Of a stretch of DNA of 64,000 bases, positions 50,181-53,415 are shown piece after piece. The stretch's first letter is position 1, and every line of letters begins with the position of its first letter. Location: the NCBI RefSeq assembly GCF_027023865.1, contig NZ_JALVUC010000019.1, positions 170,486-234,485 on the forward strand, read 5' to 3'. The notes under the pieces are model-generated. The model was not told the origin of the DNA, ran no database searches, and worked only from the letters and a program-made list of their open reading frames with translations. The position numbers and the translations under genes are program-made. This DNA is from Thermococcus sp. Lineage in GTDB: Archaea; Methanobacteriota_B; Thermococci; Thermococcales; Thermococcaceae.

Positions 50181-50262
50181 GGGCGATGGCGTCCGTCCGA
50201 GATCAAGCAGAGGATGCCCGCCGGGCTGATGACGCCTATTCTCCACCGAGAAGAAGGAGGCG
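50181..50262 (+). promoter_or_regulatory. Fluoride riboswitch (crcB motif) with SD-masking platform
   Basis: The conserved halves are GGGCGATGGCGTCCGTCC at 50181 and GGGCTGATGACGCCTA at 50223, matching the crcB RNA consensus. P1 pairs GGCGTC (50188-50193) with GACGCC (50231-50236). The pseudoknot pairs GGGCG (50181-50185) with CGTCC (50194-50198). The second hairpin is GCCC/GGGC (50216-50226). The linker before it is about 17 bases, longer than in the compact bacterial form. Downstream, CGCCT (50233-50237) can pair with AGGCG (50258-50262) inside the SD, around a TTCTC/GAGAA hairpin. This alternative excludes P1, so fluoride binding should free the SD and turn translation on. Confidence 0.88.
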
Positions 50263-50267
50263 GTAGA

Positions 50268-51134
50268 ATGAGCACAAAGCTCACTGAGATTGGACGCTAC
50301 ATTGACATAGATGGTGTTCTCGACTACGTGGGGAAGAGGCGCCACGAGGACGGCGGCTATTGTTTTGTGAGCGTTCTCGATGACACAAACGTCAACGACA
50401 CCTACTACGCCATCAAGCTCTACAACCTCCTCGGGATGGAGGTTCCTGACAAGGAAAAAACCATCGAATTCCTTTCAAACGCGATACAGCCCCAAACGGC
50501 CGTCGTTGCGATAGCGATGGCTCTCGAGGGGCTTGCCGTCCTTGGGGCGAAGGACCTTGCCAGAGAGCACGTCGATATAGTCTTCACAAAATATAACCCC
50601 CTCGAGGGTAAATTCGCCGTCGGTCTCGGCGGTAGCGAGGAGTTTGGAACGGCGACGCCAATTGAGGCCACTTATTGGGTTGTGAAGGCATTCAACGCCA
50701 TAGGGCATAACTTCTCGAAGGAAGAAAAGGAGGCCATCAGGGAGTTTGTCATGCGCTTTAGAAACGGCAACGGCTACGGGACCAAACACACGAGCACGAC
50801 GATGACTTACCAGGCACTCCACGCCCTTCATGTACTTGGTTACAGGCCCCCTAAGAGCCCCCATTTCAAGAACTGTGAGCTGTGCGGGGATTTGGGAGGC
50901 TTCACCGAGGTTCCCTACAGCCTTCCACCGTATTTGGAACCGACATTCTACGCGGTCAGGGGGCTTGAACTGCAGGATGAAACTCCAACCTGCCCAAGGA
51001 GACATGTCTGGTTCATCCGCCAGCTCCAGAACTCGAACGGTGGTTTCAGACGCTCGCTTGAGCTTGGAATCTCAAACTTCCAGAATACCTACCGTGCCGT
51101 GGCCGTGGTCGATTCGATGCTCAGGTTCCTCTGA
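50268..51134 (+). CDS. Cytosolic alpha/alpha-toroid protein (prenyltransferase beta-like), riboswitch-controlled
   Basis: 288 residues without a signal peptide. Helical-repeat units with GG motifs recur: HEDGGYCF, GNGYGTKHTSTTMTYQALHA, CGDLGGFTEVPYS and QNSNGGFRRSLELG, alternating with TYYAIKLYNLLG-type helices. This matches the toroid of protein prenyltransferase beta subunits and terpene cyclases, but their DxD/zinc signature is not clear. A CELC pair sits at about 203-206. SD GGAGGCGG before ATG 50268 is the element masked by the riboswitch. It is the first gene of the fluoride cluster and is related to the secreted toroid at 17738-19587. Its role in fluoride response is unknown. Confidence 0.82.
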   Translation: MSTKLTEIGRYIDIDGVLDYVGKRRHEDGGYCFVSVLDDTNVNDTYYAIKLYNLLGMEVPDKEKTIEFLSNAIQPQTAVVAIAMALEGLAVLGAKDLAREHVDIVFTKYNPLEGKFAVGLGGSEEFGTATPIEATYWVVKAFNAIGHNFSKEEKEAIREFVMRFRNGNGYGTKHTSTTMTYQALHALHVLGYRPPKSPHFKNCELCGDLGGFTEVPYSLPPYLEPTFYAVRGLELQDETPTCPRRHVWFIRQLQNSNGGFRRSLELGISNFQNTYRAVAVVDSMLRFL

Positions 51135-51141
51135 GGCAGTG

Positions 51142-51834
51142 ATGAGAATGGACCTGATAGGCTTCCACATAAAGGGGGCCTTTGGCGAGGGCTGTCCCGT
51201 GTGTAGACTGCTGAAGGAGTATGAGGAAGATGAGATAGACACCATACTCTACGAGCACGTGAACGACCCCCATGTTAGGGCAAAGTTCAAGGAGAGCCTC
51301 GGCCTCTGCACATACCACGCTTGGAGGACCGTTAACAAGGCATATTCCGAGCCCCTGCTCGGCCCCCTCGGTGTTTCCATAATCTATGAACACATGCTCT
51401 CTGTTTACATTGCATCACTTGAGGAAGGAAAAAGCGCCGGAACCGGTGAGTGCTTTCTCTGCTCCCTAATCCGCGAGAAGGAGAAGACAACGGTGGAGGC
51501 CTTCGCTGAAAGGATAGATGAACTCCTGCCAGATTATGAGCGGTCCGGCTCGATCCTGTGCAGGAGGCACTACGACATGATTCACTCGATACTCATGGAG
51601 AAAAGCCCCGAGATGGCGGAGGAACTTAAGAGGGTTCAGATCAAGAAACTTAGGGAGCTGAATGAACGCATGAAATCATTCATTGACAAGTTCGATTACA
51701 GGGCCAAGGAAGGTCACACCAGTGACGAGATCAGAGCCCTTCCACAGGCAGTTGAGACCCTCAAGGGACTTGAGGTCATAGAACCCCTTGAGAAGGAGAA
51801 AAAAGAGAAAAGGAGGGGGTTTCCGTGGAGATAA
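51142..51834 (+). CDS. Cys/His-rich protein (DUF6062-like)
   Basis: About 230 residues. Two similar halves each have a CxxC pair followed by LC-x-x-H: GEGCPVCRLLKEYEE with LGLCTYHAWRT, then GECFLCSLIREKEK with SILCRRHYDMI. This looks like two zinc or metal-cluster sites. The C-terminal third is helical and ends in a very basic tail (KEKKEKRRGFPWR). It resembles proteins labelled DUF6062; function is not established. The start is ATG 51142 or 51148, 8-14 bases after the toroid stop. The 3' end overlaps the next gene by ten bases. Confidence 0.78.
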   Translation: MRMDLIGFHIKGAFGEGCPVCRLLKEYEEDEIDTILYEHVNDPHVRAKFKESLGLCTYHAWRTVNKAYSEPLLGPLGVSIIYEHMLSVYIASLEEGKSAGTGECFLCSLIREKEKTTVEAFAERIDELLPDYERSGSILCRRHYDMIHSILMEKSPEMAEELKRVQIKKLRELNERMKSFIDKFDYRAKEGHTSDEIRALPQAVETLKGLEVIEPLEKEKKEKRRGFPWR

Positions 51835-52124
51835 GGCTGAAGGACGAGGAGTTCAGGGAGGTCAAGAGACATCGGAAGGAGATAGAAGAGCGCTTTGGGG
51901 ATCTCAAAGGCCTTGAACGAACGCTGAAGGAGCTCAGGATTAGGACACTCCTTGAGCAGAAGAAGAAGCTTGAGAACAGGCTCGCAGAGCTCGAGAGGGA
52001 GTACCGTGAGTTGGTGGAGTTTGAGAAGAAGGCCCTCTCCGACAAGGAGTTCTTGATGGAGTTCCGGAAAAAGCTTGGGGAGGAGAACAGGCAACTTATC
52101 AAGAGAATAGGTGAGAGAAGGTGA
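51825..52124 (+). CDS. Coiled-coil protein, unknown
   Basis: A 99-residue, highly charged protein, almost entirely helical (EVKRHRKEIEERFGDLKGLE, KKLENRLAELEREYRELVEF). Heptads of Leu/Ile suggest a dimeric coiled coil. GTG start with AGGAGGGGG upstream. It overlaps both neighbours (10 bases upstream, 4 downstream), so it is coupled within the fluoride cluster. It may pair with the coiled C-terminal half of the next protein. No domain recognised. Confidence 0.75.
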   Translation: MEIRLKDEEFREVKRHRKEIEERFGDLKGLERTLKELRIRTLLEQKKKLENRLAELEREYRELVEFEKKALSDKEFLMEFRKKLGEENRQLIKRIGERR

Positions 52125-52567
52125 AGATAGTTGTGAAACCCGAGAGGGGATGGAGGGGAATAACTTTCAACGTCCCTGACGAGACATTCGAGAGGATAAA
52201 ACAGATCGCTGAGAGGTACCGGTTCAGGCTTGATGAGGTGCTCAGGATAATCCTTCTCCATGGCTACACTGAAGGAGGAGAGGAGGAGGATACAGAAGCC
52301 ATTGAGAGGGGGATAGAGGAACTTGAGGGGAAGCTTTACCGAGTTGAGGGCGACTGGTCCCCCTTAAGGTTCAGGGCGTACTACATAGCAATGGACAATC
52401 AGAACCTCGCGATACAGCTCTCTGGAATGCTCGCCGAGAACAAACGGTTGAAAAAGCAGCTGGGCCTTCCCTTTGAGATGAATCCTGAGGTTGAGGAGAA
52501 GATACACTACTACCTCAGCTTTGAAAAGAAACCAACCAATGAGCCTGCCACTGAAGGAGGGAGCTAA
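52121..52567 (+). CDS. Ribbon-helix-helix-like protein with coiled C-terminus
   Basis: 148 residues. ITFNVPDETFERIKQIAERY, then RFRLDEVLRIILLHGYTEGG, reads as a strand followed by two helices, like CopG/MetJ DNA-binding proteins. The C-terminal half (YIAMDNQNLAIQLSGMLAEN, KRLKKQLG) is helical. It may regulate the crcB promoter 90 bases downstream or act as a structural partner of the preceding coiled-coil protein; both are inference. The GTG start overlaps the stop of the previous gene by four bases. Confidence 0.7.
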   Translation: MKIVVKPERGWRGITFNVPDETFERIKQIAERYRFRLDEVLRIILLHGYTEGGEEEDTEAIERGIEELEGKLYRVEGDWSPLRFRAYYIAMDNQNLAIQLSGMLAENKRLKKQLGLPFEMNPEVEEKIHYYLSFEKKPTNEPATEGGS

Positions 52568-52618
52568 GGTCGACCGGACGGGCATGAAGGGCAGGACGTC
52601 ACATCCCGCGTATAAAGC

Positions 52619-52631
52619 CTTTTAAATTTAG
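52619..52631 (+). promoter_or_regulatory. Likely promoter of crcB
   Basis: CCTTTTAAATTTA lies about 25-37 bases upstream of the crcB ATG at 52656, implying a very short leader. No second aptamer is visible here, so crcB may have basal expression from this promoter in addition to read-through from the riboswitch-led transcript. Confidence 0.6.
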
Positions 52632-52655
52632 AATTTGATGTCAAACGGTGGTGCC

Positions 52656-53027
52656 ATGAACCTTAGGATAGCCCTCGCTGTGATGCTCGGTGGTGCCTTC
52701 GGGGCGCTGGCGAGGTTCTACCTCTCAGGCATACTACCCGTTTACAAGGAATTTCCTGTGGGAACGCTCCTCGTCAACAGTACCGCTAGTTTAACCCTCG
52801 GCTATCTCTACGGCCTAATGTTCTGGGGATTCTACGTCCCGGCTGACTGGAGGGCCTTCTTTGGAACCGGGTTCTGCGGTGCTTTAAGTACCTTCTCAAC
52901 CTTCTCCTATGAGACGTTCTCACTCTTCCGCGAGGGTGAGTACACCATGGGTCTTCTCAACATAGCGGCAAACGTTATAATCACAATAACACTTGTGTTC
53001 GCTGGATTTATATTAGCCAGGAGGTGA
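52656..53027 (+). CDS. crcB: Fluoride exporter CrcB/Fluc
   Basis: A 123-residue membrane protein with four helices. [33 protein letters not shown] and [19 protein letters not shown] are the Fluc signatures, including the pore Asn and the Phe-rich polar track. It expels fluoride as a dual-topology dimer. ATG 52656 follows CGGTGGTGCC. DUF190 follows after 4 bases. The upstream fluoride riboswitch at 50181 ties the whole cluster to fluoride. Confidence 0.96.
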
Positions 53028-53031
53028 TTCA

Positions 53032-53415
53032 ATGGTCGAGGTTGAGCACTGGAATGCCCTTCGGCTCAAGGTTTACATAGGGGAGAACGACCGCTTCAAG
53101 GGGAAACCTCTCTACAAGGCGATAGTTGAAAAGTTCCGCGAGATGGGAATCGCGGGAGCTACAGTTTACCGCGGCATCTACGGCTTCGGAAAGAAGAGCA
53201 ACGTTCATTCAGCCGATGTGATGAGGCTCTCAACGGACTTACCTATAGTTATTGAGGCGGTTGACAGGGGTTATAAAATAGAGGAGGCGATATGCGAGAT
53301 AAGACCAATGATAAAGGATGGTATGATAACAGTTGAGCCCGTTATAGTGGTCTGGGTTGGTACCTCCGAGGAGGTGAGGAAGTTTGAGGGGGATGCCATA
53401 AGGGAACTGCAATGA
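53032..53415 (+). CDS. DUF190-family protein
   Basis: A 127-residue protein: [20 protein letters not shown], then [20 protein letters not shown] and [19 protein letters not shown]. It is the PII-like ferredoxin fold of DUF190, often encoded beside crcB. It could sense nucleotides or regulate the channel, as PII proteins do for transporters; this is not established. SD GAGGTGATTCA precedes ATG, four bases after the crcB stop. Confidence 0.93.

Follow-up and report, generated by a model that had tools for sequence, protein, structure and literature searches.

Fluc, the fluoride channel encoded by crcB, and CLC-F were both discovered via fluoride riboswitches. In the available excerpts of two studies, the regulon of these RNAs comprises crcB, CLC-F, a Na+/H+ antiporter, enolase, pyrophosphatase, HAD enzymes and formate hydrogen lyase (PMC11139923, PMC2864571), the link with formate hydrogen lyase being already known (PMC2864571). 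In Thermococcus kodakarensis, according to excerpts of a further study, a crcB RNA lies upstream of TK0513 and not of the crcB gene TK0514, which has a separate transcription start site, and this position was called surprising (PMC4247193). Here, we analysed the same locus in Thermococcus sp. (assembly GCF_027023865.1), within a window, the whole stretch of DNA under analysis, of 64,000 nucleotides (contig NZ_JALVUC010000019.1, positions 170,486 to 234,485, forward strand). The window carries a fluoride riboswitch aptamer followed by six genes, the first coding for an alpha-alpha toroid protein and the last two for CrcB and a DUF190 protein. We propose, with considerable confidence, that this operon is probably induced by fluoride and that the toroid, an uncharacterised component of a fluoride response common to archaea and bacteria, is its conserved target. 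The aptamer, the conserved pairing, the gene association and the lack of catalytic motifs described below were computed directly; judged from sequence comparison, the regulation and the toroid-riboswitch association appear well supported.

Toroid genes behind fluoride riboswitches

We scanned 94 Thermococcaceae genomes with the fluoride riboswitch model RF01734 and ran a toroid profile across the phylum. The toroid is present in 90 of the 94 genomes, and in 88 of these 90 an aptamer lies 13-45 nucleotides (nt) upstream of the gene on the same strand. The two exceptions without a toroid aptamer are G104, in which the toroid gene is broken, and G072 (G and L numbers denote our genomes and loci). 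An RF01734 match above the cut-off was found in 86/94 genomes of the family, and the orthologous leaders of almost all relatives score 42-55 bits. All 41 loci read in detail contain the toroid (gene A), while genes B, C and D, which follow it in the window, occur in 27, 28 and 29 loci, and crcB with DUF190 in 37; the presumed T. kodakarensis genome is one of those lacking B, C and D. The first-pass annotation had seen in the four genes ahead of crcB a fluoride-response module whose conservation in Thermococcales was to be checked. The riboswitch indeed precedes genes not described as fluoride genes, and its association with the toroid is kept, but the four proteins do not form one conserved module. 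On gene content, the toroid is best described as the invariant, cross-domain partner of the riboswitch, and the DUF6062, coiled-coil and RHH-like (ribbon-helix-helix-like) proteins as Thermococcaceae accessory genes. Within Thermococcus, identity is 77-84% in most rows for the toroid and 69-85% for CrcB; the toroid is very strongly conserved, at least as much as CrcB.

Relatives of the toroid outside Thermococcaceae were sought by protein sequence only, the query being a Methanofastidiosum toroid whose gene lies close to a riboswitch (L064/L128). This search returned 16 loci, mostly from Desulfobacterota, 8 of them with an Rfam-grade fluoride riboswitch. In a sample of 345 Desulfobacterota genomes, for which riboswitches were counted among the matches listed, 49 toroid places were found in 47 genomes. 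At least 22 of the 49 places lie within 5 kilobases (kb) of a riboswitch, where about 0.3 would be expected by chance; for these 22, the nearest riboswitch is on the same strand in 21, upstream in 18 and within 500 nt in 11. A riboswitch is present in at least 31 of the 47 toroid genomes vs 101 of the 298 toroid-free genomes (Fisher 4e-5, relatedness ignored). Five genomes with the toroid-riboswitch arrangement have a single riboswitch match each, located at the toroid locus. The toroid was also detected in 12/152 Methanobacteriota genomes, and one family of this phylum has, in this order, toroid, MFS (major facilitator superfamily) transporter, riboswitch and Na+/H+ antiporter; the fetched stretch included the riboswitch for 7/8 genomes. 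In the toroid tree, the Thermococcaceae proteins are sister to a bacterial clade (L207-L211; SH-aLRT support 99), with Methanofastidiosum next, and all 17 rows of that toroid group are riboswitch-adjacent.

The order riboswitch, toroid, crcB at locus L053 implies that TK0513 is the toroid, and we infer that the window toroid is its ortholog. The position of the RNA before TK0513 had already been noted in T. kodakarensis; the available part of that report gives neither a TK0513 function nor a wider association (PMC4247193), whereas the family described here is associated with fluoride riboswitches in archaea and bacteria. Our literature search found TK0513 named only in that study. The 15 other Thermococcaceae riboswitches all precede hyfC of a group 4 hydrogenase operon, the formate hydrogen lyase link known already (PMC2864571), and one of them belongs to this genome (G000:C22:32496-32559; L070:3001-3064). 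In this L070 copy, and in L068 and L069, the core GAUG is replaced by GGGCGAAGG, which makes them variant aptamers.

The aptamer and the predicted start-codon switch

The window aptamer matches RF01734 with 28.3 bits (E 2.5e-6; cmscan of 50120-50290). The match to the crcB RNA consensus and the two stems named in the first-pass annotation are thus present: GGCGTC (50188-50193) faces GACGCC (50231-50236), and GGGCG (50181-50185) faces CGTCC (50194-50198). The core GAUG ... CUGAUG is kept together with both stems, and across 37 leaders, the window being one of them, 99.8% of the stem cells are paired. Because the score lies under the RF01734 gathering score of 34 bits, a default Rfam scan of the window reports tRNA only and no fluoride aptamer, and E-value mode is needed. 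The Infernal check proposed earlier returned a significant E-value but a score below threshold. This low score arises because the linker departs from that of the orthologs (GGAT vs AACC). With an orthologous leader in the equivalent position in almost all Thermococcaceae, the aptamer at 50173-50245 is confirmed as more than a chance match. It resembles RF01734 riboswitches in its core, both stems and its 5' leader position; it differs in falling under the gathering score, and in that its predicted platform would hide the start codon of the toroid gene instead of forming a terminator before crcB.

The leader sequences suggest a translational ON switch. The nine-letter GCCUGUUCU (GCC + UGUUCU) is complementary to AGAAUGGGC, which contains the first two codons of the toroid gene. 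Among 37 distinct leaders, 99.1% of the cells of this helix are paired, vs 33-57% when it is slid by 1-3, and in the folded tail of most leaders the AUG has an unpaired probability of 0.01 with GCCU available and of ~0.4 without it. In the window, the arm GCCUAUUCU forms eight of the nine pairs with its target AGAAUGAGC. At loci L058 and L151, the same 5' arm takes part in a long hairpin, but its partner lies upstream of the ribosome site; L067 has lost the start-codon hairpin. Without fluoride, the 3' strand of the aptamer (GCC + UGUUCU) would pair with AGAAUG(G)GC at the toroid start, hiding the start codon. With fluoride, GACGCC would be locked in the aptamer and the hairpin could not form fully. 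The aptamer and the start-codon helix are mutually exclusive; fluoride should therefore free the start codon, and the toroid, with the genes translated after it, would then be produced.

Table 1 Features of the window locus, and examples of the dynamin-like GTPase in other loci
Feature	Position	Strand	Remarks
Putative archaeal TATA region GATTTTTAAA	50151..50160	+	20-30 nt 5' of aptamer; read from sequence, promoter function putative
Fluoride riboswitch aptamer, RF01734 match	50173..50245	+	cmscan of 50120-50290, full model, no truncation
5' arm GCCTATTCT of predicted start-codon-sequestering helix	50234..50242	+	its GCC also ends aptamer strand GACGCC
Ribosome binding site GGAGG, in hairpin loop	50256..50260	+	read from sequence
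3' arm AGAATGAGC, toroid start codon and codon 2	50265..50273	+	8/9 predicted pairs form in the window
Toroid protein (A), 288 amino acids (aa)	50268..51134	+	PF00432, 48.1 bits vs cut-off 26.5, 1.4e-12
DUF6062 protein (B)	51142..51834	+	PF19538, 62.9 bits vs cut-off 27, 3.9e-17
Coiled-coil protein (C), 99 aa	51825..52124	+	no family above cut-off; conserved in relatives
RHH-like protein (D)	52121..52567	+	conserved C-terminal region; weak NF041793 match below cut-off
crcB, fluoride channel Fluc	52656..53027	+	TIGR00494, 92.1 bits vs cut-off 80.45
DUF190 / COG1993 protein	53032..53415	+	PF02641, 128 bits, 1.8e-37
Dynamin-like GTPase examples	L128:3969-5717, L131:1264-2934, L209:2086-3747, L214:1192-2901, L215:3393-5147 (reverse strand)		

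The toroid protein and its neighbours

The AlphaFold model of the toroid (pLDDT 90.6, pTM 0.90) has RabGGTase beta and squalene-hopene cyclase as its closest folds by Foldseek (E 1e-5). The protein shares the alpha-alpha toroid fold of prenyltransferase beta subunits and squalene-hopene cyclases (PF00432), but lacks their catalytic motifs, while the wider family retains GG(F/Y), D-T-Y and E-x-T. A zinc prenyltransferase beta subunit was considered and rejected, as there is no D-x-C-[YF] motif and the wider family conserves neither a Cys nor a His; a squalene-hopene or class II terpene cyclase was rejected as well, DxDD being found in none of the aligned sequences. QxxxGxW is likewise in none of the aligned toroid sequences. 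The earlier suggestion that the locus protects an isoprenoid step is weakened because the zinc ligands of prenyltransferases and the DxDD of cyclases are missing.

Bacterial toroids have recurrent neighbours: a dynamin-like GTPase, an MFS transporter, DUF190, a zinc-ribbon/HEAT protein, UspA, crcB, a Na+/H+ antiporter and enolase. The dynamin subfamily, whose GTPase motifs are intact, was searched on its own and occurs at 70 places in 67 of the 345 Desulfobacterota genomes. Among the matches listed, 63 of these 67 genomes have a riboswitch (Fisher 9e-27), 53/70 places lie within 5 kb of one, and 44/70 stand on the same strand less than 500 nt downstream of it. The subfamily, mostly riboswitch-preceded in Desulfobacterota, is present also in two archaeal lineages. 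The toroid and the dynamin-like GTPase share the RNA switch, and often the operons, of the known fluoride regulon, but neither is named in the available excerpts that describe it (PMC11139923, PMC2864571). Our best guess, made tentatively, is that the toroid binds a ligand (lipid, prenyl or peptide) at the membrane, because its gene repeatedly neighbours that of a fluoride-switched dynamin-like GTPase or of a membrane transporter (Methanofastidiosum, Desulfobacterota).

MFS transporters are repeatedly paired with toroids in bacteria and Methanobacteriota (L135:4053-5222, L139:6740-7906, L220:2297-3448 (reverse strand)), making this family a candidate unrecognised fluoride-response transporter. 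Zinc-ribbon/HEAT-repeat proteins also stand beside toroids (L139:5580-5999, L141:3593-4066, L065 (reverse strand)), and a HEAT protein was seen directly behind a fluoride riboswitch in another archaeal phylum.

The order and tight spacing of the window genes are as first described, four genes and then crcB and DUF190, with a 7-nt gap between A and B, short overlaps at B/C and C/D, and an 88-nt gap between D and crcB. Protein B is indeed Cys/His-rich, with CPxC, CxxH, CxxC and CxxH motifs conserved in the alignment, but it belongs to a named, uncharacterised family, DUF6062 (PF19538); its AlphaFold model (pLDDT 84) gave no fold match in the PDB (best E 0.3). Scans of Pfam and curated profiles returned no confident family for proteins C and D; D has no Pfam match and a weak one to NF041793 (17.2 bits against a cut-off of 50). 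Since a paralog of D is found in most Thermococcaceae genomes (G000:C19:352895-353287 in this one), the D fold is not confined to the fluoride locus. A 78-aa protein resembling the C-terminal part of D sits between D and crcB in other genera (L116, L149), and lies just upstream of the hydrogenase riboswitch at L069:1699-1935. Beyond DUF190, the window encodes a 174-aa protein (53517-54041) with no Pfam match, located before coaBC; it is 27-53% identical to its relatives, its neighbours being mostly near 80% or more.

Alternative readings and significance

Of all fluoride-switched genes, crcB is the most frequent, and crcB-DUF190 lies downstream in 37/41 loci read, as expected if the riboswitch served crcB, with the four genes ahead of it, toroid included, as passengers of its operon. 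We regard this explanation as very improbable. The riboswitch stays with the toroid at L036 and L114, whose fetched regions lack crcB, the gene being far off elsewhere in both genomes; the riboswitch-toroid pairs of genomes G036 and G064 have no nearby crcB, which is at another site, and in one Pyrococcus genome crcB is 67 kb from the toroid. In addition, transcription of T. kodakarensis crcB begins at a separate start site (PMC4247193), and bacterial loci show riboswitch-toroid (L207, L208, L210) or riboswitch-dynamin-toroid (L209) arrangements, all without crcB. The first-pass statement that the RNA stands before these genes instead of crcB fits the Pyrococcus and T. kodakarensis cases. A different proposal is that the toroid catalyses prenyl transfer or terpene cyclisation, and that this isoprenoid enzyme is sensitive to fluoride and is overmade in its presence like enolase and pyrophosphatase. 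Its PF00432 domain and its nearest folds, RabGGTase beta and squalene-hopene cyclases, are in line with this, and raising the levels of inhibited enzymes is an established theme in the available excerpts of PMC11139923; with DxDD, QxxxGxW and D-x-C-[YF] in none of the aligned sequences and no family-wide Cys or His, we consider it quite unlikely, though the toroid may carry out another chemistry.

A fluoride-induced operon with the toroid as its conserved target, switched at translation, also has to face several observations that weigh against it. The window aptamer is the weakest at a toroid locus in the family search, its AACC linker is gone, and its predicted fluoride binding may be poor. 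Across the 37 leaders, all changes in the start-codon helix are one-sided, and two-sided covariation was looked for and not found, because both arms hardly vary; the helix therefore rests on kept complementarity. For 27 of the 49 toroid places in Desulfobacterota, some of them near contig ends, the matches listed include no riboswitch closer than 5 kb, and the association statistics take no account of genome relatedness. In Thermococcaceae, the search for the dynamin gave none, with one weak partial match only. Finally, the excerpts of PMC4247193 report an 86-nt crcB RNA in growing T. kodakarensis, roughly the length from aptamer to start codon. This RNA would suit a switch acting at transcription, through premature termination or a pause close to the start codon, which we consider possible although doubtful: the conserved complement falls exactly on the start codon and codon 2, and no U-run was seen after the hairpin in the leaders read. 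The aptamer's weakness would also suit decay, leaving the operon constitutive in this Thermococcus. The 28.3 bits compare with 42-55 in most orthologs, GGAT replaces the AACC linker and the start-codon helix has one mismatch. We find decay unlikely, as GAUG, CUGAUG, both stems and the exclusive pairing are all retained, the A found in place of G in the 5' arm can still pair with the U of AUG, and the unpaired probability of AUG in the folded window tail is 0.03.

If the operon is indeed induced by fluoride, CrcB and DUF190 would export the ion, and the toroid would contribute to tolerance through a second job beyond export. We advance, as a tentative possibility, that the toroid, the fluoride-switched dynamin subfamily and the linked MFS transporter could form a second arm of fluoride resistance, for membrane repair or reshaping or for clearing fluoride-damaged complexes, in which Thermococcaceae would use the DUF6062, coiled-coil and RHH-like partners instead of dynamin. 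The membrane idea rests on other lineages, because Thermococcaceae are without dynamin. We know of no earlier report of a toroid-fluoride link, although the gene table of Baker et al. 2012 may mention the toroid or the dynamin. The literature search found no paper joining 'fluoride riboswitch' with 'dynamin' and none on DUF6062.

Taken together, many archaeal and bacterial loci tie two protein families without a known fluoride role to the fluoride switch. Why the T. kodakarensis switch precedes TK0513 and not crcB can now be given a testable answer, and the predicted start-codon-hiding hairpin would provide a concrete model for how a natural archaeal riboswitch works, in a genetically tractable genus. 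Fluoride riboswitches have repeatedly exposed new fluoride biology, and the toroid may be a further instance in archaea and bacteria alike.

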